From Xylanibacter rarus (lineage in GTDB: Bacteria > Bacteroidota > Bacteroidia > Bacteroidales > Bacteroidaceae), in NCBI RefSeq assembly GCF_001275135.1, contig NZ_LFQU01000015.1, positions 31,147-95,146 on the forward strand: a stretch of DNA of 64,000 bases, read 5' to 3'. Each line of letters opens with the position of its first letter. Within the stretch, counting starts at the first letter, position 1. Of the stretch, positions 38,902 to 56,332 are shown piece after piece. The notes beneath the pieces were generated by a model that was not told where the DNA came from, did not search any database, and worked only from the letters and a program-made list of their open reading frames with translations. A program made the translations under genes and the position numbers.

Positions 38902-39209
38902 AATTCGGTAGTTAGAAGTAGTTAAAGGAGTTAGAGTAGTTAAAGTCATTACCTTTGTTGATGTCGTCATTCTTTATGTAATAATGTTGACTGGAATTTG
39001 GCTTTGGCTGCTCTAATTCTGAAAATAAGCTCGGATACTTGCATGTTTTCATCTCTTGCAATATAAAGTTTCAAGGCTTGTATACTTCAACTGCTCTGAC
39101 TTCTGTAGTTTACTGAATATTCTCGTTAGTCTTTGGCCACGTTACTTTGTATAAAATTATTTAGGCTATTGACTTTAACTACTCTAATTCCTTTAACTCC
39201 TAAAAAAGT
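38902..39209. repeat. Spacer between sufD and sufS bounded by a 26-bp inverted repeat
   Basis: The 26-nt arm at 38920-38945 (AGTTAAAGGAGTTAGAGTAG...) is an inverted copy, with one mismatch, of 39173-39198 (CTTTAACTACTCTAATTCC...). The 227-bp interior is AT-rich with no gene. It could be a small MITE-like insertion in the operon or a long-range RNA hairpin that insulates sufS. Confidence 0.55.
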
Positions 39210-40424
39210 ATGTTCGACGTAACCAAAATAAGAGAAGACTTCCCGATACTCAGCCGTAAGGTTTACGACCGTCCGCTGGTATATCTCGACAACGGTGCAA
39301 CAACGCAGAAGCCGCTGTGTGTGCTCGATGCCATGCGCGAAGAGTATCTCAATGTCAATGCAAACGTACACCGCGGCGTGCATTATCTTTCGCAGCAGGC
39401 AACCGACCTGCACGAACAGGCACGCGAGAAGGTGCGCAAGTTTATCAATGCAGGTTCGGTTAACGAAATAATCTTCACGCGCGGAACCACCGAGAGCCTT
39501 AACCTTGTGGTTTCGTCGTTCTGCGACGGGTTTATGAGCGAGGGCGACGAGGTTATCGTGTCCGTCATGGAGCATCATTCCAACATCGTGCCGTGGCAGC
39601 TTCAGGCAGCGCGTAAAGGCATATCGCTGCGCGTGATACCGATGAACGACAAAGGCGAACTGCTGCTCGACGAATACGAAAAGCTGTTCACTGAGCGCAC
39701 TAAGATAGTCAGCGTTACGCATGTAAGCAATGTCCTCGGAACGGTAAATCCTGTTAAGGAGATTGTGCGCATAGCCCACGAGCACGGCGTTCCCGTTATG
39801 GTTGACGGTGCACAGAGCACTCCTCACTTTGCCGTTGACGTGCAAGACATCGACTGCGACTTCTTTGCCTTCAGCGGGCATAAGATGTATGGTCCTACAG
39901 GCGTAGGCGTGCTATACGGAAAGGAAGACTGGCTCGACCGCATGCCGCCGTATCAGGGCGGAGGCGAGATGATAGAGAGTGTAAGCTTTGAGAAGACTGT
40001 GTTTGAGCATCTCCCGTTTAAGTTTGAGGCCGGCACGCCCGACTATGTTGCCACTCACGGCCTTGCCACCGCCATCGACTATATCAGTTCGATAGGCATC
40101 GACAACATCTCGCGTCATGAGCAGGAACTCACAAGATACTGCATGGAGCGGATGCAGGAGATAGACGGCATCAGACTCTTCGGCACGGCCAATGATAAAG
40201 ACGCCGTGGTTTCGTTCCTCGTAGGCGACATCCACCATCTCGACATGGGCACGCTGCTCGACCGTCTCGGCATAGCCGTTCGCACCGGTCACCACTGCGC
40301 CCAGCCCCTCATGATACGTCTCGGCATACAGGGCACGGTGAGAGCCTCGTTTGCCATGTATAACACAAAGCAGGAGATAGACGTTCTTGTTGAAGGCATA
40401 AAGCGCGTAAGCAAGATGTTTTGA
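39210..40424 (+). CDS. sufS: Cysteine desulfurase SufS
   Basis: 404 residues. PLP-dependent, class V aminotransferase fold; it removes sulphur from cysteine and passes it to the Suf scaffold. Start MFDVTKIREDFPILSRKVYDRPLVYLDNGATTQKP is family-typical. The PLP lysine is Lys225 in FSGHKMYGPTG. The persulphide-forming Cys363 lies in RTGHHCAQP. The group-II pattern (MEHHSNIVPWQ) indicates SufS/CsdA. No sufE or sufU follows in this window, so the sulphur-acceptor partner must be encoded elsewhere. Last gene of the operon; a bidirectional terminator follows. Confidence 0.97.
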   Translation: MFDVTKIREDFPILSRKVYDRPLVYLDNGATTQKPLCVLDAMREEYLNVNANVHRGVHYLSQQATDLHEQAREKVRKFINAGSVNEIIFTRGTTESLNLVVSSFCDGFMSEGDEVIVSVMEHHSNIVPWQLQAARKGISLRVIPMNDKGELLLDEYEKLFTERTKIVSVTHVSNVLGTVNPVKEIVRIAHEHGVPVMVDGAQSTPHFAVDVQDIDCDFFAFSGHKMYGPTGVGVLYGKEDWLDRMPPYQGGGEMIESVSFEKTVFEHLPFKFEAGTPDYVATHGLATAIDYISSIGIDNISRHEQELTRYCMERMQEIDGIRLFGTANDKDAVVSFLVGDIHHLDMGTLLDRLGIAVRTGHHCAQPLMIRLGIQGTVRASFAMYNTKQEIDVLVEGIKRVSKMF

Positions 40425-40451
40425 CTTTAGTATTTACTTTTTATATAATAG

Positions 40452-40493
40452 AAAAATCCTGGAAGTGTAGAGTTTTATTCTTCCAGGATTTTT
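40452..40493. terminator. Bidirectional terminator between sufS and the SusE-like gene
   Basis: AAAAATCCTGGAAG (40452-40465) pairs perfectly with CTTCCAGGATTTTT (40480-40493) around a 14-nt loop. T runs occur on both strands. It separates convergent sufS and the minus-strand SusC/D operon. Confidence 0.85.
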
Positions 40494-40514
40494 GTTTGTT
40501 TCATGCTTCAAGGG

Positions 40515-42401
40515 CTATTTCCTCTTAATGCTGCCTTTGATTTTTGTTGCCTTTAGCATGATATTGCTAGACATCTTTGTCTTATAAATGTATCTTGAAT
40601 TCTTATTAAACATTCTTGGAACGAAATTTCTAATCTTAATGTTATTCTTGGTAGAGATTCCTTGTGCTCCATTAATTTCAAATGTTTCGTATGCACCACC
40701 GAGCCAGCCATACTCACCATTAACATAAACGTAATAAATGGTACCAAACACGAACATTTGGGCTTCTTGGTCATATCCGCTTGTATGTTGGTCTGTGACA
40801 CCGAACAGAAGCGCAGCATCTCCTACATATAGAGGTCCGTATGTCTGATGAGAGAATCCGGTGTCAACATCTTTGAACGAAATATAGCCTTGATCGTCCA
40901 TAGTGAATGTTAAACTGCCTTCTTGTGTTATCCATGGTTCAATCTTATAGTTAAATGGATTCTTCTTATCCTGATACATTGTGGCAGAGTATGATGGAGT
41001 AATATCATTGATTATAGGATTACCTACGAAATTATCACTGCCCTCACCATCTGTTATAAATGCCGGTTGTACATTATGTGTAAATGTTCCAGAATAAACA
41101 GGTTGCCAGTCTGCGGCACTTGATTCACCTCCCAATGAGAATTTAAATGGTGTTGCAGAATGATTTTTCATGTTGCCCTGAGCGTCATATGTAACTATAA
41201 TCATAATATAATTACCGCTTTCTGTTAATTGTGCCTGTATGTCTTCTCCCGATGTAATATAGTTTGACTCTATATTACCATCATTTATGGCTGTTACAAT
41301 TTCATTTATGTCATCACCTTCTGCAGCGATTACCCATCTTGCAAAAGCGACATCTTTGCCAAGAGTTATTGTACCTTGTACATAGCTGTTGTCTTTTGCA
41401 TCGGTAAATCTTCCCGTATAGGTGAATGAAGATGTATAGTCGGTTATTTCATACCCTGGCATTGCTATTGCAAACATTCCGTCTGAATTTGTATAATAGG
41501 TTGGACTTGTTATCTGTGAAGGTCCAAGCTCCATTAAGAAACTTTGTGCAGGCATGGTAATTATACCATCTTGATATGTTCCGAAATATTCAGGCGCAAT
41601 CTGCTTTAACGTTTCTACATCGTATCCGTTAAGTACATTTAGTGCAGTTACATAACTGTAAAGAAGAATATTGTCTGAACCGTATTTTCCTGGAAGTATT
41701 GTTCCATCTACATAGGCATGAGCTGGATCCGAAACATCGAAGATGATACCATTGTCATTATTAAATGTGATAGCACTTCCATTATACATTTTATAAATTT
41801 CCGTATCTTCGCCGTAAGGATTCTTGAGACGGTAACGGCCTTCTTTTAGAGCACTTTTTTGTAGTGGAACTTTGTAGGTTAGAGGTTCTATACCGAAAAC
41901 AGAAGATATGAGACCTTCACGATAAGTTACTTCTTCTCCTGTATCAATCCATTCTGTAAGACCAGCTGATATTGTGCATGATGAATCTCCGTATGGAGTG
42001 GTATAAGCTTCATCTCCAATACTGAGTGTAATGTTTTCATAATATCCATATCCGCATTTGTCTGACAGAAGGGTTTTGGGGTCGTATGCAATATTTATGT
42101 CTGCTGTTGTCGCACCGTCTGCAAAAGTCACTGTTGCTGGGACAGTGTAGATACTGCCGTCTTTAGTTACAGCGTTTATTTTTACGGTAAGTTCACCTTC
42201 GCTCTGAATACGGTTTATCTGTACCTGAAAACTGTTTTTTGCAGGATCCAAGTCGTAATTTGAGGCAAGGGTTGTTTTAAAATATACCTGTTCACCCTCG
42301 GCTGTTGCAGCAGTATGCTCATATTCTTCGGTACATGACCCCATAACGAGTGCAAGCGCCACGAAAATGAACATCGTGCAATAACTGAATATTTTATTCA
42401 T
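40515..42401 (-). CDS. SusE/F-like surface lipoprotein, operon 1
   Basis: 628 residues. Lipoprotein signal with lipobox VMGSC and acidic +2/+3 region (CTEEYEH), consistent with a Bacteroidetes surface-export signal. An N-terminal beta domain (VQINRIQSEGELTVKINAVTKDGSIYTVPATVTFADGATT) resembles a Calx-beta/BACON-type module. The C-terminal third includes WQPVYSGTFTHNVQPAFITDGEGSDN...PWITQEGSLTFTMDDQGYISFKDV, closely similar to the operon-2 protein at 53889. By position after SusC-SusD it should be an accessory glycan- or ligand-binding lipoprotein. The substrate is not identifiable. Last gene of the minus-strand operon. Confidence 0.8.
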   Translation of the reverse strand: MNKIFSYCTMFIFVALALVMGSCTEEYEHTAATAEGEQVYFKTTLASNYDLDPAKNSFQVQINRIQSEGELTVKINAVTKDGSIYTVPATVTFADGATTADINIAYDPKTLLSDKCGYGYYENITLSIGDEAYTTPYGDSSCTISAGLTEWIDTGEEVTYREGLISSVFGIEPLTYKVPLQKSALKEGRYRLKNPYGEDTEIYKMYNGSAITFNNDNGIIFDVSDPAHAYVDGTILPGKYGSDNILLYSYVTALNVLNGYDVETLKQIAPEYFGTYQDGIITMPAQSFLMELGPSQITSPTYYTNSDGMFAIAMPGYEITDYTSSFTYTGRFTDAKDNSYVQGTITLGKDVAFARWVIAAEGDDINEIVTAINDGNIESNYITSGEDIQAQLTESGNYIMIIVTYDAQGNMKNHSATPFKFSLGGESSAADWQPVYSGTFTHNVQPAFITDGEGSDNFVGNPIINDITPSYSATMYQDKKNPFNYKIEPWITQEGSLTFTMDDQGYISFKDVDTGFSHQTYGPLYVGDAALLFGVTDQHTSGYDQEAQMFVFGTIYYVYVNGEYGWLGGAYETFEINGAQGISTKNNIKIRNFVPRMFNKNSRYIYKTKMSSNIMLKATKIKGSIKRK

Positions 42402-42428
42402 AATATTGTCTATTTAAATTATTTCTAT

Positions 42429-44033
42429 TTATTTTGCGTAGTTATTTGCCGGGTCAGGGTTGTTATAATATCTTACACCGGCATTATTTGTCTCTTCTGA
42501 GCGTACTATAGCCCAGTTCATCCATGCAGGACGTGAAGTAGTCTTGAATTGTGCCCGAGATTCTATGTTGACAGATGTAGTCTTGTCAACAGCATAGCCT
42601 AGGCGTTTAATGTCGAAGAACGACTGGCCTTCACCCCAAAGCTCAATTTGTTTCTGGAAAACAATTTCTTCTATAATTTGGTCTTGGCTTGTACCTTTAA
42701 AAGAATACTTCGTGTCACGTGACAGCATGAAGGTTTCGAGCAATTTCTTTCCACGTTCAGCGTCTTGGTGAGCAGCAGCTTCAGCTTCAATGAAATACAT
42801 TTCTTCAATTCGCATTATCGGGAATGCCGTGACATTTCCTGCTGTATAGTCGCTAACGTTTCCACCGGCAGGACGGAATTTAGTTGAAGTATAATCTTCA
42901 AGAGCTTCGCCTATTTCTGCATCGCAATATGTATTCTTTCCATACAGTGAAGAACCTTCTGGAGCTTTAAACATAAGTTTACGCCAGTCAGTATTGCTCA
43001 TTTTATTATAAGTAGCTGAAGGAATCTGTGGAAGAACACCAGCTCCTCCCATTGACAGAGGACCACTGTATCCATACGTGTTTTCTGATGTCATGAATGC
43101 AGCCCAATTCATAAGATTGCTGACATTGCCGCGTGAATAAGTTGCTCCCCACATCCATTTTGTAGCATCGTTGAATCCTGTAGTTATGTTGAGTGCCTCT
43201 TCCTTTGTCATTGGCTGTGACGTAGAGGCATCTATTGCCATGCGTGCATATTTTTCAGCCATAGGATAGTTTTCCATCCACATATAAAGACGTGCATAAA
43301 GACCATAAACGCAGTCGATCTTAGGTACGGATGTGCTTGATATTTTCAGTAGGGGTACAAACTTTTCTGCAGCCTGCAAGTCACTGAGGATAAAATTGAA
43401 CATGTCTTTTTTCTTTGCACGCGGGTTGTTACGTGCTTGCTGTTCTGTTGTCTTCTCTGTTACAATAGGTACTGTCAGACCGGAAATGTCATTTCCCTCT
43501 GGACTTATTGGCTTCGTCTTGTCATTTTCAAGGAACTCGTATTCGCGGGCCATATCGAGATAAATCAAAGCGCGGTAGGCAAATGCTGCACCGGCAAGAC
43601 CTTTTTCAGAGTCAGTTCCGCTTATTGTGTCAACTGCAGCAATAGCGTTATTAGCAGCCAGGACAAAACCTGTTTGATATTGCCACATGAATTGGGCTGT
43701 AAGGTATTCGCGTCCCCAATATAAATCATAGTACCAGTTGCCCCATTGGTTGTATTGGTAGCCATTGGGACTGAATGCCAATTCGCCAGACTGTATATCT
43801 CGAATAATCATCAAACCGGCATATCCGATTGACCAATGGTAACTTGACGTCCATATTTTTGAAAATTGATTGTTCAGACCCATGACAAGTGCTTCTGCAC
43901 TTTCTTCTGTAGGTGGCACCTGTTCATCGGTAACGCCACTTGTAGGCAGGGTTTCGTCAATACAGCTTGAAAGCGTAAATGACGATACCAAGACCATCAG
44001 CATGCTAAGTCCGTATATAAATATCTTTTTCAT
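42429..44033 (-). CDS. SusD/RagB-family surface lipoprotein, operon 1
   Basis: 534 residues. Lipoprotein signal ends FTLSSC-IDE. SusD marks: MIIRDIQSGELAFSPNG, ANNAIAAVDTISGTDSEKGLAGAAFAYRALIYLDMAREYEF (TPR-type helices), DCVYGLYARLYMWMENYPMAEKYARMAID, MRIEEMYFIEAEAAAHQDAERGKKLLETFM, and WGEGQSFFDIKRLGY near the C-terminus. It captures ligands at the surface and closes over the SusC barrel encoded immediately upstream (24-bp gap). Paralogue of the operon-2 SusD. Confidence 0.94.
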   Translation of the reverse strand: MKKIFIYGLSMLMVLVSSFTLSSCIDETLPTSGVTDEQVPPTEESAEALVMGLNNQFSKIWTSSYHWSIGYAGLMIIRDIQSGELAFSPNGYQYNQWGNWYYDLYWGREYLTAQFMWQYQTGFVLAANNAIAAVDTISGTDSEKGLAGAAFAYRALIYLDMAREYEFLENDKTKPISPEGNDISGLTVPIVTEKTTEQQARNNPRAKKKDMFNFILSDLQAAEKFVPLLKISSTSVPKIDCVYGLYARLYMWMENYPMAEKYARMAIDASTSQPMTKEEALNITTGFNDATKWMWGATYSRGNVSNLMNWAAFMTSENTYGYSGPLSMGGAGVLPQIPSATYNKMSNTDWRKLMFKAPEGSSLYGKNTYCDAEIGEALEDYTSTKFRPAGGNVSDYTAGNVTAFPIMRIEEMYFIEAEAAAHQDAERGKKLLETFMLSRDTKYSFKGTSQDQIIEEIVFQKQIELWGEGQSFFDIKRLGYAVDKTTSVNIESRAQFKTTSRPAWMNWAIVRSEETNNAGVRYYNNPDPANNYAK

Positions 44034-44056
44034 ATTTTTTCTGTTTGTAATTGTTT

Positions 44057-47000
44057 TTAGAATGTAACTGTTATACCGCCTGATATGGTGCGCATTGCAG
44101 AATAGTAGGCAGTTGAAGCTCCTCCTGTTATGCTTTGGCGTGGGTCAAGTCCTTGACGTTTAGACCAAACCCAAAGATTTGTCGCCGTAAGATAGAGTCT
44201 TAATTTGCTTATTCCTGCTTTTGCAGTGAACTTGCTGGGCAGAGTATATCCGAAATTGAGGTTTTGCAGACTTAGATATGAGGCATCGGTAAGGAAACGG
44301 TCTGAAGTATAGTTGACGTCCTGATCTGCATAGACGATATGGGGAATGTTCGAATTTTTGTTTTCCGGTGTCCATGCATTCAATAAGTCAGCATGGATAG
44401 CAGATCCTCCTGTCGCCATGCTCATCATGCTTGCATAATCAGAATCGTAAATTTGACCACCAAGCTGATACGTGAAGTCTAATGATAAATCGAAACCTTT
44501 ATATGAGAAACGTGTGCCGAAGCCTCCATAGGCCCATGGCAGTGCTGTTCCGCAAAGATATTGTGTGGCATCAGAAGATGATTCTGTCGTTTCTTTGCCT
44601 GCGACATAAGTCTTCTTGTTTCCGTATTCGTCTAACACAGGATTCCCGTTTTCATCAACAACGTCTTTAAGGACATCTTTCCAGTAAAGTGCTTTACCTG
44701 TTTCGGGGTCAACACCGGCATATTTAGCCATATAGAAAGTGTAAAGAGGTTTTCCTTCACCATAGAAATAGCTGCCGCTTGCATAGCCTTCAACGCCTTC
44801 AGAAGTGGTTGTTGTCTTGTTTTCATCTGCAATTCTTACAATTTTGTTTTTATAAGCTGTAAAGTTTATGTTTGCGCCCCACTCAAAGTCTCTAGTCCTG
44901 AAGATTGTTCCGTCGAGTCCTATTTCAACTCCCTGGTTAGTCATATCTCCAATGTTGTCATAATATCCTGTATATCCGAATGAACCAGGAAGTGAGAACC
45001 ATGAAAGCATGTCGGTTGTCTTACGGTAGAAATATTCAATGCTGCCGGCAAGACGTCCGCGGAACAGAGAGAATTCGAAACCTGTATTGAAGTTGCCGCC
45101 TGTCTCCCATGTTATTTCTTTGTTACCCATAGTGGTACTTGGTATCAGTGAGGCAACTCCGTCTGAAGGTGCTATTGTGTATGTGTTTGAGTAGAGGTAG
45201 TTGCCGATGTTGTCGTTACCCTGCTCACCATAAGAAGCCTTGAACTTCAACTCGTCAACCCAAGAAGCGTTGAACCACTTTTCCTTGCTGATGATCCATG
45301 CGCCGCCAAATGACCAGAAGTTACCCCAGCGGTGATCCGGGTGGAAGCGTGAAGAAGCGTCACGACGATAAGATACTGAACCGAAGTACTTGTTGTCATA
45401 GTTATACTGTGCACGTCCGAAGAAACCTTCTGTATTGTAGTCGGTAGTGTACGAATCCATAGTTCCGTCAGTTACAGCTCCTGCCAATTCATCATTGAGG
45501 AATGAATACATATTGCTTTTTGATGCAGACAATATGTAAGATCTTGTACGATAATACTCATGACCGAGCATAATCTCAACATCATGCTTGCCGAACAGAC
45601 GATGCCAATTCAATATTTGCTGATAGTTATATGACCAGTCACGTCCGTGCGATTTGCTTACGATACCGTTTTGTGATGCAAACTGTCCAAAATATGGCTG
45701 CTGTGTACTTGTTCCACGGCTCTCATTAAGCATGACACTATTTGTCGTTGTGAATTTAAAGTCTCTTAGGAAACGTATTTCCGCAAATCCTGTAGCATTG
45801 AGGTTGTTACCCTCTGCGTAACTCTTGTCAAGCTGATTTGAGCAAATTGGGTTAGAACCTGCAAATACGGAACGCTGTTGGCCGTTAATTTTTCCGTCGC
45901 CCCAGTCGTAAGACGGAAGTCCTGTCTGGGCATCTTGTAATATGTTCCCATTTGCGTCGCGGATATAAAGAGGATAAATAGGCGCAATAGAATTTACTGC
46001 GAAAATATTTCCGCTTGAACTGCTGCTGCCGTCGTCTCCAAGATAATTTGATACATAGTGTGCATAGCTGAAGTTTGCACCAACTTTAAGCCAATTTCTT
46101 ATTTGGTAGTCTGCTTTAAGACGACCGGTGAAACGTTCATAGTCAGAACCGATTGTGATACCTTCGTTCTTCAAGTAACCTGCAGAACCATAGAAAGAAC
46201 CTTTTTCGTTGCTTCCTGTTGCTGTAATATTATATTCTTGACGAAGACCGTTCTGGAATGTGGCATCACGCCAGTCGTCAGGGAGGAGCATATAAGAATT
46301 GCCGTTGTAGTTTACAATGTTTCCTAATGTGGCGTTAGGGTTGATTCTTCCATTTGTTCCAATTAGATATTGTCCTTCTGGAACAGCATAGACATTATAG
46401 CCCAATCCATAGGAATTATTGGCGCAAAGGTTGTTGTTTGCCCATATATAAGATTCTCTGTCAGTATGCTTTAAGTATCTGTCTTCTGCAGGCATCCCTT
46501 CTTGCCAATTGGGGTTAGGATACCAATCTTTATAGTAATTGTAAAGTGATTTGTAATACGTTTCATAGTATGCCGCAGGGCTGTTTACAGTCTTGTAATA
46601 TGGAGTGCCTTTTGAATTGGCTCCCCACTTGGCATCAACAGTGATTGATGAGGTGCCTTCGCGGCCGGTCTTTGTTGTGATGATGACAACACCATTGGCA
46701 CCACGCGCACCGTAAAGAGCTGCAGAGGCAGCATCCTTCAGGACGGTCATTGAGGCGATGTCGTTAGGGTTTATATTCTGAATATCACCATCATAAGGCG
46801 AACCGTCAACGACAATAAGCGGTGATGTGCCTGCATTAATAGAACTGATACCACGGATTTTAATGCTTAGACTTTCTTGTCCGGGGGCACCAGTCGCAGA
46901 ATTGATCTGTACACCTGCAACCTTACCGGTCAATGCTGTTACTGCGTTAGAACTAGAGGTTTTTGTTATTTCCTCTGACTTTACAACCGCTGCAGAACCG

Positions 47001-47353
47001 GTGAAGGCTGATTTCTTAGCCGTACCGTAAGCAACGACCATCACCTCGTCGAGGTTGGTCTCGTCAGGAGCGAGCACCACGCGTACGCTGTTGCCCTTTA
47101 CCGTTACGTCCTGATCAACCATGCCGACATAGGTTACTTTCAGCTTGTTGTGCCCTGCGGGCATGCTGATAGAGAACTTACCGTCAGCGTCTGTCACGGC
47201 ACCGGCGCTGGCGCCCACAACGCGGACAGTAGCACCGATAATCGGCTGACCGTCCTCCTGAGACACCACGGTTCCCGTAACTGCTGTTTGTGCCAGTGCC
47301 ATTCCCAGTGACAGGAACAGGCAGGCCAAAATCATAGTTAGTCTTTTTTTCAT
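44057..47353 (-). CDS. SusC/RagA-family TonB-dependent receptor, operon 1
   Basis: 1098 residues. Signal peptide MKKRLTMILACLFLSLGMALA, then a CarboxypepD_reg-like domain (about 22-95), TonB-box-like DEVMVVAYGTAKKSAFTGS (about 103-121), plug (GVQINSATGAPGQESLSIKIRGISSINAG...LKDAASAALYGARGANGVVIITTK) and a large barrel ending in GGITVTF with a terminal Phe. Residues 1-~125 are almost identical, also in DNA, to the divergent SusC at 49046; the extracellular barrel parts differ. Only a degenerate AACCTTTG (plus-strand 47393-47400) and no TTTG partner precedes it, so in this orientation its promoter looks poor. Confidence 0.95.
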   Translation of the reverse strand: MKKRLTMILACLFLSLGMALAQTAVTGTVVSQEDGQPIIGATVRVVGASAGAVTDADGKFSISMPAGHNKLKVTYVGMVDQDVTVKGNSVRVVLAPDETNLDEVMVVAYGTAKKSAFTGSAAVVKSEEITKTSSSNAVTALTGKVAGVQINSATGAPGQESLSIKIRGISSINAGTSPLIVVDGSPYDGDIQNINPNDIASMTVLKDAASAALYGARGANGVVIITTKTGREGTSSITVDAKWGANSKGTPYYKTVNSPAAYYETYYKSLYNYYKDWYPNPNWQEGMPAEDRYLKHTDRESYIWANNNLCANNSYGLGYNVYAVPEGQYLIGTNGRINPNATLGNIVNYNGNSYMLLPDDWRDATFQNGLRQEYNITATGSNEKGSFYGSAGYLKNEGITIGSDYERFTGRLKADYQIRNWLKVGANFSYAHYVSNYLGDDGSSSSSGNIFAVNSIAPIYPLYIRDANGNILQDAQTGLPSYDWGDGKINGQQRSVFAGSNPICSNQLDKSYAEGNNLNATGFAEIRFLRDFKFTTTNSVMLNESRGTSTQQPYFGQFASQNGIVSKSHGRDWSYNYQQILNWHRLFGKHDVEIMLGHEYYRTRSYILSASKSNMYSFLNDELAGAVTDGTMDSYTTDYNTEGFFGRAQYNYDNKYFGSVSYRRDASSRFHPDHRWGNFWSFGGAWIISKEKWFNASWVDELKFKASYGEQGNDNIGNYLYSNTYTIAPSDGVASLIPSTTMGNKEITWETGGNFNTGFEFSLFRGRLAGSIEYFYRKTTDMLSWFSLPGSFGYTGYYDNIGDMTNQGVEIGLDGTIFRTRDFEWGANINFTAYKNKIVRIADENKTTTTSEGVEGYASGSYFYGEGKPLYTFYMAKYAGVDPETGKALYWKDVLKDVVDENGNPVLDEYGNKKTYVAGKETTESSSDATQYLCGTALPWAYGGFGTRFSYKGFDLSLDFTYQLGGQIYDSDYASMMSMATGGSAIHADLLNAWTPENKNSNIPHIVYADQDVNYTSDRFLTDASYLSLQNLNFGYTLPSKFTAKAGISKLRLYLTATNLWVWSKRQGLDPRQSITGGASTAYYSAMRTISGGITVTF

Positions 47354-47378
47354 AAATACTCTCTAATTAAATAAATAA
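46980..47378 (-). repeat. susC inverted repeat, left arm (~400 bp)
   Basis: Covers the leader (from TTATTTATTTAATTAGAGAG), start codon, signal peptide and first domain of the minus-strand susC. The matching arm is 49019-49421 on the opposite strand. From start codon to about codon 92 only two substitutions were found by direct reading, plus a 2-bp GA length difference in the leader. A short more diverged patch follows, then another identical ~65-bp stretch up to about codon 125, after which the genes diverge. Confidence 0.9.
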
Positions 47379-47574
47379 GTTACATAATTATCCAAAGGTT
47401 TATTGCTGCGGCACTTATGTCTGCTGATGGCTGTCCTGTCACATGTGTAAGTAAAATTTTCTGTTAATGCCAGAGTCAATCAATAATAGTCATATGTTTA
47501 ACAGAAGTCAACTTTAATCAGTGAAAAGGCTATTTGAGGGCAACCCCAATAAGGAAAGGACATATAGCTACAGG

Positions 47575-47796
47575 ATAAAAAAGTTTTCGATAGAAACTCG
47601 TCACTCGTCACATCGACGGGTAAAATGCTGACTGTCAGTTAAATATGGTGTGACGAGTTGCTTCCCCTGACTCGTCACACTTGCGTTGATTAACAGTGCT
47701 GTGACGAGTTGAGATTTTAACTCGTCACATCGTAACGGCTTGTTTGTCAATGAATTATGGCCGATTGTGACGAGTGACGAGTTTCTGCGAAAATTT
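47575..47796. repeat. GTGACGAGT multi-dyad element, copy B
   Basis: AACTCGTCAC 47595-47604 with GTGACGAGTT 47650-47659; GACTCGTCAC 47669-47678 with GTGACGAGTT 47701-47710; AACTCGTCAC 47719-47728 with GTGACGAGTGACGAGTT 47767-47783. Distances in dyad 1 (55 nt), the gap to dyad 3 (18 nt) and dyad 3 (48 nt) equal those of copy A. Dyad 2 has a longer loop. Both copies begin ATAAAAAAGTTTT. Confidence 0.75.
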
Positions 47797-48965
47797 ATTA
47801 TAAGTAAGATCCCGATTACGTAAAAGCTTGCTTACGGCCCTGCGAAACGTGGCTTTTTGGCGTGCAATATGTATGCTTTTGCACGATGAAACATGGCTTT
47901 TTGTATCTAACAGAGGCTTCTGTCTGTATGGAGCTTGCCTGCTGTTTAAATAAGCATATTAATTTTAAACGGTCAGGATGTTATGTCGTCTTGCATTTTG
48001 CACCGATATAAAAGTCTTGTGGAAAGGTTGTGCCAAGTGGCGTTGCAAAGGCTTGCTCAGCGTTATTTTATCGGTAGTCGCAGTTTTGTGGTAAGTAATG
48101 TCAAATCTGTTTTGCATAATTTATAGCAGAAAACTTTATGATTATAAGTCATGATTTTGCTTGTCCGGAGCTGCATATTGAAATAAATCCATATCTCATC
48201 GCGTCAAAAAGTTATTGATAATGTAATCTGTCTTTGCTGTTTTTATGTGCTATGAAACTAAAATTTCTGTATAGGAATGTGGCATGAAATGTGGCTGCCG
48301 AGTGTTTGAGGCAGTGCTAAAATACTATAATTTTAAACTTTATATAATACTTTTTGTTGACATTCTGCTCTGTGTTTGCGTTTACATTATGCCATATTGA
48401 ATCGTTTTTGCTTACATTTTGTCAGTGCTTTATTTATATTTATGCAGAAAATATTGCATATTTATCCAATATTGTTATAATTAAGTTAATTACACCTTAT
48501 TATATATACAATGAACCATAATTACTGCCTGCATTATTTGATGTATTGAAATAGTTTTGTGTCATAATGTCTGCCGGGCGATATTAAATATCAGTAAATA
48601 AGCAATTTACATGCATTTTGTGCATAATATCTTAAATATTTGCATGTCAACATAGACGAAACAGATATTAAGCATTATTTAAAGTGTAAAATTTTAACTC
48701 AAAAAATGTGCGAATAAACATAATGCAAGCATATAATTAATTATTTATGCATATAGATTTAAATTTCTTTATATGAATGTTCAGGTGTAAATTGCCTTTA
48801 TTTTGATGCATTCTAAAAGTCAAGAAGTGGTGTATATACACTTTATATACAAATCAAAATGAAAGTAAAATAACACTCAAAGTTTCATTTTACATGAATT
48901 TTTATGTGATTCTGTCAGATTTATGTTAAAAACCCGACTTAAACCCACTTTTTTTTCTTTCATTT

Positions 48966-48996
48966 TTTGGACTTTATGAAATAATCTTTATTTTTG
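48966..48996 (+). promoter_or_regulatory. Promoter of SusC/D operon 2
   Basis: TTTG 48966-48969, 19-nt spacer, TATTTTTG 48989-48996: full consensus. It lies in the unique spacer only 23 bp outside the right susC inverted-repeat arm, so an inversion between the arms would carry it to operon 1. Confidence 0.7.
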
Positions 48997-49018
48997 CATA
49001 TTGTAACAAAAGTATAAT

Positions 49019-49421
49019 TTATTTATTTAATTAGAGAGAGTATTTATGGAAAAAAGACTAACTATGATTTTGGCCTGCCTGTTCCTGTCACTGGGAATGG
49101 CACTGGCACAAACAGCAGTTACGGGAACCGTGGTGTCTCAGGAGGACGGTCAGCCGATTATCGGTGCTACTGTCCGCGTTGTGGGCGCCAGCGCCGGTGC
49201 CGTGACAGACGCTGACGGTAAGTTCTCTATCAGCATGCCCGCAGGGCACAACAAGCTGAAAGTAACCTATGTCGGCATGGTTGATCAAGACGTAACGGTA
49301 AAGGGCAACAGCGTACGCGTTGTGCTCGTTCCGGATCAGACCAACCTTGACGAAGTGATGGTCGTTGCTTACGGTACGGCTAAGAAATCAGCCTTCACCG
49401 GTTCTGCAGCGGTTGTAAAGT
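49019..49421 (+). repeat. susC inverted repeat, right arm (~400 bp)
   Basis: Opposite-strand partner of 46980-47378. It includes the leader, ATG 49046, signal peptide and CarboxypepD_reg-like domain of the operon-2 susC. Confidence 0.9.
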
Positions 49422-52237
49422 CGGATGACATCGCGAAGATTTCAAGTTCTAACGCAATGTCTGCACTTAGCGGTAAAGTATCTGGTGTGCAGATCAACTC
49501 TGCTACAGGTGCTCCTGGTCAGGAGAGCTTCAGCATCCGCATCCGCGGTATCAGCTCTATCAACGCCGGTAACGACCCGCTGATCATAGTAGACGGTGCT
49601 CCTTACAACGGAGACATCAACAACCTTAACCAGAACGATATCGCTTCAATGACCGTCCTGAAGGATGCTGCCTCTGCAGCTCTTTACGGTGCGCGTGGTG
49701 CCAACGGTGTTGTCATCATCACAACAAAGAACGGCCGCGAGGGTACTTCTTCAATCACTGTTGACGCTAAGTGGGGTGCTAACACACGTGGCGTTGAGTT
49801 CTACAATACAGTAGAAAGTCCTGCCGGATATTATGAGGCATACTATCAGTCATTGAAGAACTATCGTACAAGTCTCGGCGATGATGCTGCAACAGCTCAC
49901 AGATGGGCTCTGAACAATATGTTCTCTGGCGGTTACGACCTTGGCTATAACGTTTACACTGTTCCTGAAGGACAGGACTTCATCGGCCCGAACGGAAAAC
50001 TGAATCCTAACGCAACACTCGGCCGCGTTATTAACGTTAATGGCACAGAATACCTGCTCTATCCTGATTCATGGCGCGACGCTGCTTATCAGACAGGTGT
50101 ACGTCAGGAGTATAACGTTACTGCTACAGGAAGCAACGACAAAGGTTCTTTCTATGGTTCTGCAGGTTATCTGAAGAACGAAGGTATCAGTATCGGTTCT
50201 GACTATGAACGTTTCACAGGCCGTCTGAAGGCTGACTACCAGCTCAGATCTTGGTTGAAACTTTCTGGTAACTTCAACTATGCTCACTATAAGGCTAACT
50301 CACTGGCTGACGATGGTGGCAGCACAGTAGGAAACGTGTTTATGGTTAAGAACATGGCTCCTATCTATCCTCTGTACATCCGTGACGCAGCAGGCAACAT
50401 CCTGCAGGATTCTAAGACAGGTCTCGCTATGTACGACTGGGGTGATGGCACTGTAACAGGTCTTACACGTCCTACAATGACAGGTTCTAACCCTATCTTC
50501 GCTAACTATTTTGACAAGAACCAGAACGAGGGTAACAGCCTCGACGCTACAGGTACAGCTGAAATCCGTTTCCTCGAGGACTTCAAGTTCACATCAGCTA
50601 ACACTGTAATGCTCGACGAAACTCGATTCACATATACAAACAACCCGTATTATGGTCAGTTCGCTGCCAACAACGGTTCTGTTCAGAAGGCACACGTACG
50701 TACATGGGCTTACAACTACCAGCAACTCTTGAACTGGCATCACCTGTTCGACAAGCACGACGTAGAGGTTATGCTCGGTCATGAGTACTACCGTACACGT
50801 TATTATTATCTGACAGCATCTAAGAACAATATGTTCTCTGTATTCAACGATGAGTTGGCAGGTGCTGTTAACACTGGTACAATGAACTCTTACACAACTG
50901 ACTACAACGTTGAGGGTTGGTTCGGACGCGTTCAGTACAACTATGACAACAAGTACTTCGGATCACTTTCTTATCGTCGTGATGCCTCTTCACGCTTCCA
51001 CCCGGATCACCGCTGGGGTAACTTCTGGTCATTAGGTGGTGCATGGATCATCAGCAAGGAAAAATGGTTCAACGCTCCTTGGGTTGACGAGTTGAAGTTC
51101 AAGGCTTCTTATGGTGAGCAGGGTAACGACAACATCGGCAGCTACCTCTACACAGATACATACAGCATTGTTCCTTCTGGCGATGGCGCTGGCGTGAAAC
51201 CTTCTTCAACTAAGGGTAACGAAACTATTACTTGGGAAAAGAACGGTAACTTCAATACAGGTTTCGAATTCTCATTCTTCCGCGGACGTCTTGCCGGTAG
51301 CATCGAGTACTTCTATCGTCGTACAAGCGATATGTTGGCATTCTTCGCACTTCCTGCTTCTTCAGGCTGGAGCGGATACTATGACAACGTAGGTAACATG
51401 CAGAACATGGGTGCTGAAGTTGAACTCGACGGAACACTGATCCGTACAAAGGACTTCGAGTGGGGACTCAACCTTAACTTCACTGCTTATAAGAACGAAA
51501 TCACATCTATCGCTGATAAGAACAAGACTCAGACTGTTGAGGGTTCTGAAGGTTATGCAAGCGGTAGCTACTTCTATGGTGAAGGCGAGTCACTCTATAC
51601 ATTCTACATGCCTAAATATGCAGGTGTTGACGAGAACGGTAAGTCTATGTTCTATAAAGACAAGCTGGATGAAAACGGAAACATAATTGGTCGTGAGACA
51701 ACAACAACTCCGGGTGAAGCTACATACTATCTCTGTGGTACAGCTCTTCCATGGGCATACGGAGGTTTCGGAACACGCTTCTCTTACAAAGGCTTCGACC
51801 TCGCTGTTGACTTCAACTATCAGCTTGGCGGTCAGATCTACGATTCAGACTATGCCGGCATGATGGGTATCACCAGCAGCGGTAGAGGTAGCGCTATCCA
51901 CGCTGACTTGCTGAACTCTTGGACAGAAGAGAATCCTAATACAAACATACCTAAGCTGATTATCGACGATACAAGTACAACAACCACTTCAGATCGCTTC
52001 CTGATCGGTGCTTCTTACCTGAGCCTGCAGAACCTCAACTTTGGTTACACATTCCCGACAAAGATGACAAGCAAGGTAGGTATCGGCAAACTTCGTGTTT
52101 ACCTTACAGCTACAAACTTGTGGTTGTGGTCTAAGCGTCAGGGACTTGACCCACGCCAGAGCATTACTGGTGGTGCTTCTTCTGCATATTACTCTGCAAT
52201 GCGCACAATTTCAGGTGGTATTTCTGTAACATTCTAA
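49046..52237 (+). CDS. SusC/RagA-family TonB-dependent receptor, operon 2
   Basis: 1063 residues with the same layout as the operon-1 SusC: signal peptide (MEKRLTMILACLFLSLGMALA), CarboxypepD_reg-like domain, DEVMVVAYGTAKKSAFTGS, plug with LKDAASAALYGARGANGVVIITTKNG, barrel, terminal GGISVTF. The first ~125 residues are nearly identical to the divergent paralogue. Other blocks are also very close in DNA (for example RFHPDHRWGNFWS and ELKFKASYGEQGNDNIG), while surface-loop segments differ. Probably imports a glycan or peptide related to, but distinct from, that of operon 1. A consensus promoter lies upstream. Confidence 0.95.
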   Translation: MEKRLTMILACLFLSLGMALAQTAVTGTVVSQEDGQPIIGATVRVVGASAGAVTDADGKFSISMPAGHNKLKVTYVGMVDQDVTVKGNSVRVVLVPDQTNLDEVMVVAYGTAKKSAFTGSAAVVKSDDIAKISSSNAMSALSGKVSGVQINSATGAPGQESFSIRIRGISSINAGNDPLIIVDGAPYNGDINNLNQNDIASMTVLKDAASAALYGARGANGVVIITTKNGREGTSSITVDAKWGANTRGVEFYNTVESPAGYYEAYYQSLKNYRTSLGDDAATAHRWALNNMFSGGYDLGYNVYTVPEGQDFIGPNGKLNPNATLGRVINVNGTEYLLYPDSWRDAAYQTGVRQEYNVTATGSNDKGSFYGSAGYLKNEGISIGSDYERFTGRLKADYQLRSWLKLSGNFNYAHYKANSLADDGGSTVGNVFMVKNMAPIYPLYIRDAAGNILQDSKTGLAMYDWGDGTVTGLTRPTMTGSNPIFANYFDKNQNEGNSLDATGTAEIRFLEDFKFTSANTVMLDETRFTYTNNPYYGQFAANNGSVQKAHVRTWAYNYQQLLNWHHLFDKHDVEVMLGHEYYRTRYYYLTASKNNMFSVFNDELAGAVNTGTMNSYTTDYNVEGWFGRVQYNYDNKYFGSLSYRRDASSRFHPDHRWGNFWSLGGAWIISKEKWFNAPWVDELKFKASYGEQGNDNIGSYLYTDTYSIVPSGDGAGVKPSSTKGNETITWEKNGNFNTGFEFSFFRGRLAGSIEYFYRRTSDMLAFFALPASSGWSGYYDNVGNMQNMGAEVELDGTLIRTKDFEWGLNLNFTAYKNEITSIADKNKTQTVEGSEGYASGSYFYGEGESLYTFYMPKYAGVDENGKSMFYKDKLDENGNIIGRETTTTPGEATYYLCGTALPWAYGGFGTRFSYKGFDLAVDFNYQLGGQIYDSDYAGMMGITSSGRGSAIHADLLNSWTEENPNTNIPKLIIDDTSTTTTSDRFLIGASYLSLQNLNFGYTFPTKMTSKVGIGKLRVYLTATNLWLWSKRQGLDPRQSITGGASSAYYSAMRTISGGISVTF

Positions 52238-52263
52238 AAACATTAAAAAACAAATTGAACATT

Positions 52264-53853
52264 ATGAAAAGATTCATGACAATATGCCTTGGTGCAGCTT
52301 TAACTCTGATGACTTCAATGTCATTCACAAGCTGTATCGACGAGGTTGAGCCCACAGACGGAGCGTCAGACGGCCAGGTTTCGGGTTCAGAATCAGCGGT
52401 GGCGTCATTGGTTAGCGGTCTTAACTCATACGCTACAAATATTTGGAATACATCAAGCTTCCCCGCAAGTTTCGGTTATCCTGCAATTATGATAATCCGT
52501 GACATTCAGTCTGGTGAGCTTGCTTATGGTGAGAAAGCTAACGGATGTCTGTTCCTTAACTGGCTTGCAGATGTTTATCTGTCACGTGAGTATATGGTAA
52601 ACCAGTTCTTGTGGTATTATCAGACACAGTATGCAGGCGCTGCTACTAACGCTATTGCAAAGATTGATACTCTTGCCAGCGATGCCAACAAGGGCTATTA
52701 TGCTGCAGCTCTGGCTTATCGCGCAATGCTTTATATCGATATGGCACGCGAGTATGAGTGGCTGCCCAACGACATCACTCAGGGTGTCAGCCCCGAAGGA
52801 AAAGACATCACAGGTCTTACAGTGCCTATCGTTAAGGAGGGCATGACAGAGGAGCAGTGGCAGAACAATCCTCGTGCAAATAAAGCAGATATGGCTGCCT
52901 TCATCCTTGGCGACCTTCAGAAGGCTGCAAGCATGATAGGCTATCTTGACGACGCAAGCAAGACAATGCCTCATCTCGACTGTATCTATGGTTTGATGGC
53001 ACGTTGCTATATGTGGCTTGAGGATTATCCTAACGCTGAGAAGTATGCACGTCTGGCTATCGACAACTCAACATCTGCACCTGTAACACAGGCACAGGCT
53101 CTTAACACAACATCTGGTTTCAACGACCTGAGCCAGTGGATGTGGGGTACACAGTACTACACAGGTTACGTTAACAACCTATACTGCTGGACAGCAAATA
53201 TGTGTAACGAAATCAGCTACGGATATACAGGTACTCAGCTCGGAACTTATGTTCAGATTGACGCTAACATGTATAACCGTATCAGCGACGGCGACTGGCG
53301 TAAACTCCTGTGGAAAGCTCCAGAAGGAACATCTCTCGAAGGCAAGAACCAGTTTATCAGCGCTGAAGTTGGAGAACAGCTTCCTGGATATGCTTCTTTG
53401 AAGTTCCGTCCGGGCGGTGGTAGCATCAATGACTACACTGTAGGTAACGTTGTAGGTGTTCCGTTCATGCGTATTGAGGAAATGTACTTCATCGAGGCTG
53501 AGGCTGCTGCACACAGCGACCAGGCTAGAGGTAAGGAACTTCTTGAGTCATTCATGAAGCGTCACCGTAACCCGAACTACACATGCCGCGCTGCTGATGT
53601 TATCGACGAAATCGTATTCCAGAAGGCTGTTGAACTTTGGGGTGAAGGTCAGTACTTCTTTGATGTTAAGCGTCTGAACAAGACTGTTACAAAGGACTAC
53701 AACGGAACCAACCATACAGCACCTTATCTGTATAACACAACAACTCGTCCTTCATGGATGAACTGGCAGCTGAGCCGTCTGGAAGAGATGAACAACAGCG
53801 GAGTAACGGGATACAACAACCCGACACTCGCAGATCAGCCTTATGCTAAATAA
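52264..53853 (+). CDS. SusD/RagB-family surface lipoprotein, operon 2
   Basis: 529 residues from ATG 52264 (an in-frame TTG at 52255 is less likely). Lipoprotein signal ends FTSC-IDEVEPTDG. SusD-family segments: IMIIRDIQSGELAYGEK, AATNAIAKIDTLASD, AALAYRAMLYIDMAREYEWLPND, DCIYGLMARCYMWLEDYPNAEKYARLAID, MRIEEMYFIEAEAAAHSDQARGKELLESFM, WGEGQYFFDVKRLNK. It parallels the operon-1 SusD along its length but the middle differs, in line with a different ligand. It starts 27 bp after susC. Confidence 0.94.
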   Translation: MKRFMTICLGAALTLMTSMSFTSCIDEVEPTDGASDGQVSGSESAVASLVSGLNSYATNIWNTSSFPASFGYPAIMIIRDIQSGELAYGEKANGCLFLNWLADVYLSREYMVNQFLWYYQTQYAGAATNAIAKIDTLASDANKGYYAAALAYRAMLYIDMAREYEWLPNDITQGVSPEGKDITGLTVPIVKEGMTEEQWQNNPRANKADMAAFILGDLQKAASMIGYLDDASKTMPHLDCIYGLMARCYMWLEDYPNAEKYARLAIDNSTSAPVTQAQALNTTSGFNDLSQWMWGTQYYTGYVNNLYCWTANMCNEISYGYTGTQLGTYVQIDANMYNRISDGDWRKLLWKAPEGTSLEGKNQFISAEVGEQLPGYASLKFRPGGGSINDYTVGNVVGVPFMRIEEMYFIEAEAAAHSDQARGKELLESFMKRHRNPNYTCRAADVIDEIVFQKAVELWGEGQYFFDVKRLNKTVTKDYNGTNHTAPYLYNTTTRPSWMNWQLSRLEEMNNSGVTGYNNPTLADQPYAK

Positions 53854-53888
53854 ATTAATAAATAAGTAATAATAAAACAGAAAATATC

Positions 53889-55763
53889 ATGAACAAGATA
53901 TTCAAACATTCCATGATGCTCCTCTTTTCGGCACTGGCACTCGTGCTGGGCTCATGTACCGAAGAGTTTGAGTACATAGGAGCAACGATTGAAGGAGAGC
54001 AGGTGTATTTCAGCAATGCGCTTTCTTCAACAGTGAACCTTGATCCTAATGCCAGTGAGGTGAAAATACCGGTAAACCGCATCCAGCGTACCGGTGAACT
54101 CACTGTAAACTTCAATGTAACTACATCTGAAAACTGTGCAGTTAGTGTTCCTTCTTCTGTAACATTTGCTGACGGCGACTCTGTAGCATATCTGACTGTT
54201 ACTTACGATCCTCAGACAATACAGATGGGTCACTTTGATGATGTTACTGTAGCTATTGCAGATGCTAACTATACAACTCCTTACGGAAGTTCATCTTATA
54301 CATTCACTATCGGACTGTCTGAGTGGAACTCAATCGGTACAGGACTTTATCGCGATGCAATCTATCCGGGCTTCTATGGCGCAGATCAGCTGACTTACAA
54401 CGTAGAGATTCAGGAGAACATCCTGAAACCGGGTTACTACCGTATCGTAACTCCTTATGGACCTGGCACAACATTCTATAACACTTATGTTGCTACAGGT
54501 ATGATGGCATGGGCTAACAAGGATAACACAAGCCTGGTTATCAACGCAACAGATCCTAACTTCGTTTATGTAACAGGTGACTTCTATCCTGGCACAGACG
54601 ACGGTATGGCTTCTCAGGGATATGGTGTAATGCACTTGTTCAGCATCGTTGACGAGTATATTAAGGAGGGTAACAGCCTTGAGGATATCAAAGCAGCTAA
54701 ACCGGATCTCTTCGGAACTCTGAAAGACGGTATGATCACTCTGCCTCAAGTGTGCATCTATGTAAACTTCGACGATTCATTCACTCCGCTTGGCTATCTT
54801 GACACAACAGGTTGGGCAATTGCTCTGCCGGGCAGCGAATTTACTGACTACTCTTCTTCGTTCACATACAAAGGCCGTTTCACCGACGTTGCAGGCAACA
54901 ACTACGCTGAGGGTACTATCACTCTTGGTGAGGATGTAGCTAACGCAAAATATGTATTGGCTGCTGACGGTGACGATATCAATGCTATTGTTGAAGCTAT
55001 CGCTGACGGTTCTCTCGAGGCAACAGGTATCACTGAAAGCGATGATGTAAGCATCCAGATAGCAGAAGGTGGTAAGTATACAATGGTTATCGTTACATTC
55101 GATGCTGAAGGCAACATGAGAAGCAGTTCTGCTACAACATTCACATTCAGCACTGGTGGCGGTTCAGGTACAGCTAACTGGCAGCCTGTAACTTCTGGTA
55201 CATACGACCAGAACTACTTCCCGAACTTCATCACTGACGAGGGCGGTCAGCCGGTAGGTAACCCGTTTGGTGACGGTACATATTCAACAACTCTCTATGT
55301 TGACGGTAACGACCAGACTCACTACAAACTTGAGCCTTGGCTGACACAGGAAGGTAGCCTTGAATTCACTCTCGACGATAGAGGTATCATCTCATTCGAT
55401 GTCATCGATACAGGCGTAGACTCTCAGACAGGTTATGGTAATGTGCTTGTTGTAAACGCTAACGACATGTTCGCTGATAATCCTAACTATCCGTTCAGCT
55501 TCTATGCTGAGGAAGGTATCTTCGCATTCGGTATGATGTATTATGTTAACATGAACGGCCAGCAAGGCTGGATGGGTGGTGCAACAGAAACATTCACTCC
55601 GTCACAGAGCGGTGCTCCTTCAATGGTTAAGATGCCGGCTGCTAAGAAAGGTGTTAAGAGTTATAAGGCTGTCAAGGGTGTTAAGAAAGTGCTCAATGCT
55701 AAAGTTGACAGAAGCTATGACTCTAAGTTCTTCAGCAACAGAGGACTGACTATCAAGAAATAA
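53889..55763 (+). CDS. SusE/F-like surface lipoprotein, operon 2
   Basis: 624 residues. Lipobox VLGSC followed by TEEFEY. It parallels the protein at 40515: IPVNRIQRTGELTVNFNVTTSENCAVSVPSSVTFADGDS, SEFTDYSSSFTYKGRFTDVAGNNYAEGTITLGEDV, GDDINAIVEAI, ANWQPVTSGTYDQNYFPNFITDEGG, PWLTQEGSLEFTLDDRGIISFDVIDTG. A Lys-rich end (KMPAAKKGVKSYKAVKGVKKVLNAK) precedes the terminus. It is likely the accessory binding lipoprotein of operon 2 and starts 36 bp after susD. A strong terminator follows. Confidence 0.82.
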   Translation: MNKIFKHSMMLLFSALALVLGSCTEEFEYIGATIEGEQVYFSNALSSTVNLDPNASEVKIPVNRIQRTGELTVNFNVTTSENCAVSVPSSVTFADGDSVAYLTVTYDPQTIQMGHFDDVTVAIADANYTTPYGSSSYTFTIGLSEWNSIGTGLYRDAIYPGFYGADQLTYNVEIQENILKPGYYRIVTPYGPGTTFYNTYVATGMMAWANKDNTSLVINATDPNFVYVTGDFYPGTDDGMASQGYGVMHLFSIVDEYIKEGNSLEDIKAAKPDLFGTLKDGMITLPQVCIYVNFDDSFTPLGYLDTTGWAIALPGSEFTDYSSSFTYKGRFTDVAGNNYAEGTITLGEDVANAKYVLAADGDDINAIVEAIADGSLEATGITESDDVSIQIAEGGKYTMVIVTFDAEGNMRSSSATTFTFSTGGGSGTANWQPVTSGTYDQNYFPNFITDEGGQPVGNPFGDGTYSTTLYVDGNDQTHYKLEPWLTQEGSLEFTLDDRGIISFDVIDTGVDSQTGYGNVLVVNANDMFADNPNYPFSFYAEEGIFAFGMMYYVNMNGQQGWMGGATETFTPSQSGAPSMVKMPAAKKGVKSYKAVKGVKKVLNAKVDRSYDSKFFSNRGLTIKK

Positions 55764-55830
55764 TGTGATGAATGCTGTGAGTCAAGTTCTTCACTGTAAG
55801 ACTTGACAATACTACAGACATCATTAAATA

Positions 55831-55880
55831 ACAAGAAAGGCCCTGCCTGACCAATGTGTCGAGGCAGGGCCTCTTGTTTT
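55831..55880 (+). terminator. Terminator of SusC/D operon 2
   Basis: AGGCCCTGCCT (55838-55848) pairs with AGGCAGGGCCT (55862-55872). The stem is extended by ACAAG/CTTGT with a 2-nt bulge, followed by TTTTTT. It lies about 70 bp after the last stop codon. Confidence 0.85.
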
Positions 55881-56332
55881 TTGATATAATTATAATAATA
55901 CAAGTATTGTCATTCGGGATAAAACATTCTCAGATGAGTGAGATATATAGTGCTATAAATGTTAAGAATTTGTCTGTTTTTAGTATTTGTATCTCATCAG
56001 ATATGTGCTTTTTCGCCTCTTGATTCGCCCTTTCAGATGGGACAGACGACAGTCTCTCCTCATAAAAACTTATTTATGAGAAGGAAAAAATATTTTTGCT
56101 GACGCATGTTAAATATAAAAATTTACTATTATATTTAATTTAACACATATTAGATTTGGCTTAATGTTAGCGGCCGTGATAATCAGTCTATCAAGGCAAA
56201 TTATGAAATCAATAAATTTAGGGGTTTAATAATATTCTAGTAATCCTTTGGGATTCAGACTGTACGCTTGACATACTAATCAGTTCTGTACGTTGAGTCT
56301 GTAGGCATCGGTCTTTGCTGATGCGTCAAGAA
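55881..56332. other. Intergenic region between operon 2 and the recombinase gene
   Basis: AT-rich, no gene seen. Near its right end are two similar words, CTGTACGCTTGA (about 56259-56270) and CTGTACGTTGAGTCTG (about 56286-56301), close to the recombinase 3' end. They are too short to call an attachment site. Confidence 0.4.

Follow-up and report, generated by a model that had tools for sequence, protein, structure and literature searches.

A candidate invertible promoter between two divergent SusC-SusD-lipoprotein operons of Xylanibacter rarus

SusCD receptors serve nutrient uptake in Bacteroidales and are exposed at the cell surface to phages and immunity. A SusC/SusD shufflon of Bacteroides fragilis, controlled by Tsr0667, was reportedly described by Nakayama-Imaohji et al. 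in 2009 (J Bacteriol 191:6003). In the accessible parts of other papers, Tsr0667 is presented as a master invertase that governs multiple inversions of the shufflon type in B. fragilis, at three clusters of SusC/SusD genes and in nine further regions (PMC4747536), SusCD orthologues appear among invertible loci (PMC12632263), differently oriented invertible regions in or near SusC/SusD systems are reported in inflammatory bowel disease (PMC10939037), nutrient-receptor shufflons are reported in B. thetaiotaomicron (PMC12548429), and capsule promoters are described with their repeats, on invertible segments of about 180-350 base pairs (bp) with one operon switched (PMC12118408). In this work we analyzed a stretch of 64,000 nucleotides from Xylanibacter rarus (contig NZ_LFQU01000015.1, positions 31,147 to 95,146; hereafter the window), in which two susC genes stand back to back with inverted, nearly identical 5' ends. 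We consider that this locus quite probably switches by phase variation, an invertible promoter serving one or the other of two complete SusC-SusD-lipoprotein operons.

Inverted susC arms, a one-sided promoter and a recombinase gene

The two operons are divergent, lipoprotein-susD-susC on the minus strand (40515-47353) and susC-susD-lipoprotein on the plus strand (49046-55763), and each side holds the complete gene set that an earlier reading of the letters alone (the sequence-only reading) had assigned to it. That reading had also placed correctly the near-identical inverted repeats at the two susC 5' ends. The left arm (46977-47378, 402 bp, minus strand) consists of the leader and first ~125 codons of susC1, the right arm (49019-49422, 404 bp, plus strand) of those of susC2, and the two match in inverted orientation at 97%. 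Their outermost 68 bp (46977-47044 and 49355-49422) are identical, and the coding parts share exact runs of 238, 32 and 68 bp, along with mismatches. Nothing else in the 3.79-Mb genome resembles either arm as closely as the other arm does, the sole further match to an arm being an 86-bp stretch at 74%. Mere protein conservation was rejected as the cause of this likeness on account of a step in synonymous divergence (dS, NG86), which rises abruptly near codon 125, from 0.066 (codons 1-124) to 1.716 in the other 937 aligned codons. Beyond the arms the genes are ~70% identical, except for near-identical islands at codons 201-225 (99% of nucleotides) and 651-725 (93-95%), a pattern that suggests additional gene conversion.

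Between the arms lies the candidate invertible segment, a spacer (47379-49018) with no open reading frame (ORF) of 100 or more amino acids. A Bacteroidetes-type consensus promoter, TTTG-N19-TATTTTTG (48966-48996, plus strand), reads into susC2, whose ATG lies 80 bp downstream of the promoter's start; neither strand of the spacer holds a second match, as the sequence-only reading had held in assigning the full promoter to operon 2 alone, and a scan of both strands found no leftward full consensus promoter upstream of susC1. With "on" and "off" referring here and below to promoter position only, susC2 would be ON and susC1 OFF in the assembled orientation. Between promoter and right arm stands a block, GTAACAAAAGTATAA (49003-49017, plus strand), which is confined to promoter-bearing sides.

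Two features had escaped the sequence-only reading, a recombinase gene beside operon 2 and a dispersed repeat in the spacer. The former (56333-57256, minus strand) encodes a tyrosine recombinase of 307 amino acids, a candidate invertase, with a PF00589 match at E 2e-27, an intact frame and the motifs TGLRIGE at 139, TPKSASS at 186, FHGLRHTFA at 250, LGHSS at 275 and NLYVHP at 285, which we take to satisfy the catalytic R-K-H-R-H-Y signature of tyrosine recombinases. As in an inverton, inverted repeats thus flank a segment with an outward promoter near one end, and a site-specific recombinase is encoded in the genome, close by. The dispersed genomic repeat matches spacer positions 47453-47903, with ACTCGTCAC and GTGACGAGT motifs at 47596-47782, and about 106 of the 111 genome matches to the spacer fall on it. 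The same repeat, with both motifs, occurs in the window at 9616-9774.

We propose that the spacer carries its single outward promoter by its right end, that a tyrosine recombinase, most likely that at 56333-57256, would recombine two inverted short leader elements (~47359-47378 and ~49019-49038), and that each flip would hand the promoter to operon 2 (the assembled state) or to operon 1, with the corresponding change in expression. The near-identity over ~125 codons would probably be a second, slower effect, due to homologous recombination or gene conversion between the inverted N-termini; such exchange might also permit the swapping of receptor bodies below a constant leader and N-terminus. 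The recombinase 56333-57256 is the likely agent of the flipping, though we are less sure of this than of the switch itself; another enzyme is possible because the window genome holds 19 PF00589 matches.

Both SusC1 (44057-47353, minus strand, 1098 amino acids, intact; 799.8 bits to TIGR04056 OMP_RagA_SusC) and SusC2 (49046-52237, plus strand, 1063 amino acids; 795.6 bits) score above the TIGR04056 cut-off of 368.25 bits and are thereby SusC/RagA TonB-linked receptors. Downstream of them lie susD1 (42429-44033, minus strand; PF07980 SusD_RagB, E 4.6e-11, no NCBIfam match) and susD2 (52255-53853, plus strand; PF07980, E 8.3e-11; listed start TTG, with an ATG three codons in). Each operon ends in an ORF for a SusE-like surface lipoprotein, at 40515-42401 (minus strand; LVMGSC in the N-terminus, weak Pfam and NCBIfam matches) and at 53889-55763 (plus strand; LVLGSC in the N-terminus), both motifs being lipobox-like by eye. 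All ORFs of operon 1 are uninterrupted.

One leader type in related genomes

The SusC1 N-terminus was searched in 398 genomes of the genus, and two divergent matches at most 4 kb apart among the matches listed were counted as a pair. On that basis at least ten genomes hold a pair, namely the window genome, G227, G228, G273, G040, G138, G332, G067, G213 and G351 (G, C and L numbers are our handles for genomes, contigs and loci), and an eleventh divergent pair, in G095, emerged on reading flanks. One leader type is common to the window, G227, G228 and G273, in which the leader shared by both sides starts at -27, -27, -24 and -23, respectively, and a fifth pair of this type was found in Marseilla massiliensis (Prevotellaceae). 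All five pairs have a -7 box plus the block GTAACAAAAGTATAA on one side, directly outside the common leader; in G227 and M. massiliensis it is the left operon that the block faces, in the other three pairs (window, G228 and G273) the right one. The block shows no mismatch on six of six promoter-bearing sides, the single-operon locus of G053 included, and four to seven mismatches on five of five opposite sides. Three of the pairs, those of the window, G227 and G228, have the full two-box consensus. In G053 a single susC stands behind the same block, and a recombinase remnant lies 775 bp upstream of this susC.

The sequence-only reading had recombination between the arms flip the spacer. The inverted leader core within the arms is kept in some related loci, but the ~400-bp coding arms are probably not an essential substrate, because in M. 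massiliensis the coding N-termini differ and the leader core is nonetheless exact: its right-hand susC encodes a different receptor, with an N-terminus matching SusC1 at 43% (84% for the left-hand one), and yet 20 bases of the left leader, TTATTTAATTAGAGAGAGTA, recur exactly and inverted in the right leader. These comparisons give a slight preference to the leader, as opposed to the coding arms, as the common element for crossover and hence as a candidate recombinase site. A 16-bp core, TTATTTAATTAGAGAG, lies in the left leader at 47359-47374 (minus strand) and in the right leader at 49023-49038 (plus strand), and the window genome holds no exact copy besides these two (G000:C15:78505-78520 and 80169-80184). 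It was sought at up to one mismatch in eight genomes, with the reversed pattern as control. Both exact copies in the window genome and both in G227 lie at the respective susC pairs, as do two of the three in M. massiliensis, and the control pattern gave zero matches in all eight genomes. A weak palindrome in the core was seen by eye only, and AT-rich DNA yields such matches by chance. Core copies away from susC leaders include L195 (M. massiliensis, C257), where a susD-like gene ends, and L203, a copy with a mismatch on contig C31 of the window genome, the contig with the strongest PF00589 match of that genome.

At E <= 1e-40, 29 of the 398 genus genomes, the window genome included, hold a relative of the window recombinase. 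Among the matches listed, the family is present in the leader-type pair genomes (window, G227, G228 and G273) and in none of the six other pair genomes; without the window genome, which supplied the query, it is found in three of three leader-type and none of six other pair genomes, an outcome with one chance in 84 (calculated by hand). The flanks of the relatives were read in 27 of the 28 other genomes (G170 was left out) and searched with the window Sus proteins and for inverted repeats, ORFs being listed for some loci. The relative in L073 (57%) stands beside HsdM and two inverted hsdS specificity genes (Pfam), and similar inverted repeats, judged by eye, accompany those in L079, L080, L081 and L101 (54-56%). 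A TTTAATTA-like similarity between the leader core and the hsdS repeats, also noticed by eye, was not used as evidence. In M. massiliensis the relative, 64% identical, has gpmI on one side and, on the other, the WYL regulator also seen in the window, with a single ORF of 292 amino acids in the same interval; no related susC is present on that contig. The gene adjoining the WYL regulator in both species is presumably that for RNase HII. The relatives L089, L090, L091, L093 and L095 are no more than about 250 bp from the end of their contig, and L084 and L085, remoter relatives (49%), are divergent from a distant susC gene ~215 bp off.

A parallel class with the recombinase inside the spacer

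In G040, G138, G332, G067, G213, G351 and G095 a tyrosine recombinase lies within the spacer itself. A search with one of these enzymes matched 59 of the 398 genus genomes at E <= 1e-60 (64 rows), and a draw of 247 genomes of the order gave two matches besides the window's own, at 40%. Neither this family nor that of the window recombinase was confirmed in IMG/VR. Inspection of the neighborhoods of rows 1 to 47 and of the window genome's own row yielded 47 loci, 29 of which have a divergent susC N-terminus on both sides (seven preselected for that feature plus 22 of the 40 fetched). The window was rejected as a member of this class; its spacer holds no ORF of 100 amino acids and no CACCTC-N7-GAGGTG, the class's site, at up to three mismatches.

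Tyrosine recombinases require identical centers at their two sites. CACCTC-N7-GAGGTG, allowing two mismatches in the 12 arm bases, stands upstream of both susC starts in 22 of the 29 loci, on one side in four and on neither in three. The N7 center is the same on both sides in 21 of these 22, as compared with a mean of 1.2 and a maximum of 7 in 10,000 shuffles, a test that is not fully independent, as the consensus was built from the same loci and the adjoining leader sequence is often alike. The left sites show 19 different centers, and no center equals its own reverse complement, so that the two sites are genuinely in inverted orientation. A -7 box (TAnnTTTG) was sought up to 90 bp from the site in the direction of the spacer. 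Of the 29 loci, 26 have it on one side only, one on both and two on neither, and 23 of the 26 one-sided boxes are at the 3' side of the recombinase. Within 420 bp, the full two-box consensus occurs on one side in 15 loci and on both in one.

All best-match receptor bodies at 85% identity or more (85-100%) were assembled into eight pairs. Promoter states are opposite in five of them, namely both receptors of G232/G259 (89% and 91%) and a single receptor each of G131/G153 (90%), G035/G037 (99%) and G095/G037 (95%). At the DNA level the recombinase-bearing spacer is reversed relative to both operons between G232 and G259, G131 and G153 align in inverted orientation over the spacer (85.5% identity) and collinearly over the operon beside it (89.0%), and the spacer of G095/G037 is visibly reversed relative to the shared operons. 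Two further proposals of the sequence-only reading are touched by these data. Promoter hand-over gains from the one-sided design in four related leader loci and in most of the 29 parallel-class loci, together with the opposite states in five of the eight pairs, and stays an inferred step. A comparison of spacer orientation in related genomes, which had been suggested as a check, revealed reversal between parallel-class species, and it offered no close relative with the window's own two operons.

Across 33 of the 34 pair loci (all but L143, which a contig end truncates), the best match of the N-terminus (residues 1-115) was the divergent partner at the same locus for 33 of 62 genes, and that of the body (from residue 261) for 3 of 60. 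These counts exclude three genes that were short or truncated and one that had no usable partner, and the start codons are in part approximate. Along one flank G051 and G296 are 97.7% identical, and they have different left receptors, the collinear match stopping within the susC N-terminus. From the partner counts and the different receptors of G051/G296, N-termini within a locus would therefore tend toward homogenization, with the bodies being exchanged. Two contigs of G178 (L123 on C56 and L124 on C79) start with the same 141 bp, each running into a different susC, the assembly having broken within the arms; they were rejected as evidence of mixed orientation, as an exact repeat of assembly-word length has the same effect.

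Competing explanations and known systems

Several observations weigh against a promoter switch as proposed here, or against parts of it. Operon 1 could use a promoter type invisible to the consensus; G273 and M. massiliensis have the -7 box and block only, with no full TTTG-N17-23-TAnnTTTG, and the two-box consensus is absent from 13 of the 29 parallel-class loci. Near relatives with the same two operons were found neither in 200 genus genomes nor in a second search of 100 relatives, among which 59 other genus genomes were already in the first set, the long DNA matches being at ~64-72%; flipping at the window locus is something that we infer. Many relatives of the window recombinase lack a related susC pair nearby, and in G227, G228, G273 and M. 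massiliensis the enzyme is encoded on a different contig from the pair and in those genomes would have to work at a distance. The evidence of inversion comes from the parallel class, whose recombinases (seven compared) are 14-18% identical to that of the window. There, three of the eight receptor pairs share the same state (G051/G296, 100%, and G218/G037, 89%, on; G374/G335, 85%, off), and the operon common to G095 and G035 (84.6% DNA identity) is off in both. As for the crossover site, the window genome has a further one-mismatch copy of the core elsewhere, the two copies in G273, both at the pair, each carry a mismatch, one of the three exact copies in M. massiliensis lies away from the pair, the single copy in G053 has one mismatch and is away from susC, and none was found in G228, G043 or G068 at up to one mismatch. 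Finally, the G227 pair has an exact 88-bp coding stretch in common, which leaves the coding arms as a possible substrate.

This last stretch also speaks for RecA-type homologous recombination between the ~400-bp arms, which would operate the same switch without a dedicated recombinase. The length and 97% identity of the arms fit such a process, as do identity tracts that stop at differing codons across species, which homologous exchange predicts and one fixed site does not. We nevertheless judge it unlikely, given the divergent coding N-termini around an exact 20-bp leader core in M. massiliensis, the recombinase gene adjoining the window locus, and the combination of recombinase and matched inverted site in the parallel class. 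A former switch, locked as a relic with operon 2 on, seems distinctly improbable: the window arms do carry mismatches, and G053, with its lone susC behind the block and its recombinase remnant, resembles a locked state, but in the window the recombinase motifs and frame are intact and the susC1, susD1 and operon-1 lipoprotein ORFs are uninterrupted. It appears very improbable indeed that there is no switch at all and that gene conversion maintains the similar 5' ends of two divergent paralogues, with operon 1 on another regulated promoter. Conversion or local recombination clearly occurs, as seen from the contrast between N-termini and bodies in partner matches and from the islands at codons 201-225 and 651-725; what this explanation leaves unaccounted for is a promoter block that is one-sided in five of five leader-type pairs and faces either way, an intact other operon, and the reversed spacers and states between related parallel-class species.

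Beyond the invertible promoter proposed for the window, we can only tentatively extend the argument, at somewhat less than even confidence for the whole, to a genus-wide two-layer receptor-slot system, in which a single promoter would flip between two SusCD operons and, independently, operons would be swapped between species via the shared arms. The flippers would be two barely related tyrosine recombinase families, one akin to hsdS invertases, and the leader and N-terminal arms would act as docking homology, a constant N-terminus fronting changing receptor bodies. If true, receptor phase variation in Prevotella-like bacteria could be predicted from sequence by the recognizable site and promoter signature of a two-position switch, and constant N-termini with exchangeable bodies would give a handle on the spread of receptor repertoires. 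In the literature searched, mostly titles and the starts of abstracts with few subscription papers, a two-operon promoter hand-over in this genus, the two recombinase families and the site signature are undescribed.

The locus shares features with three kinds of known system. With type I restriction hsdS invertons it has in common a recombinase whose relative (57%) stands beside two inverted hsdS genes in L073; unlike in those, the window recombinase stands beside susC operons, and no Methylase_S match was obtained in the 10 neighboring window proteins scanned (39126-58475). Like the invertible promoters of Bacteroidales polysaccharide loci (Mpi, Tsr19), as outlined in the available parts of PMC4747536 and PMC12118408, it has a promoter between short inverted repeats and an invertase that may be near or distant; unlike the capsule promoters, in what could be consulted of PMC12118408, the window promoter would alternate two operons over 1.6 kb. 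Like the Tsr0667 shufflon, insofar as its partial accounts allow the comparison, it would have DNA inversion decide SusC/SusD expression through a dedicated invertase, here a proposed one. It differs from that shufflon in consisting of two operons, one spacer and a promoter that would move, and a single arm pair with two exact leader cores in the genome stands in place of multiple alternative inversions at a cluster. Judged from these partly seen sources, inversion of SusC/SusD loci is already known in principle, and the window locus would be a variant of the Bacteroides SusC/SusD inversions.

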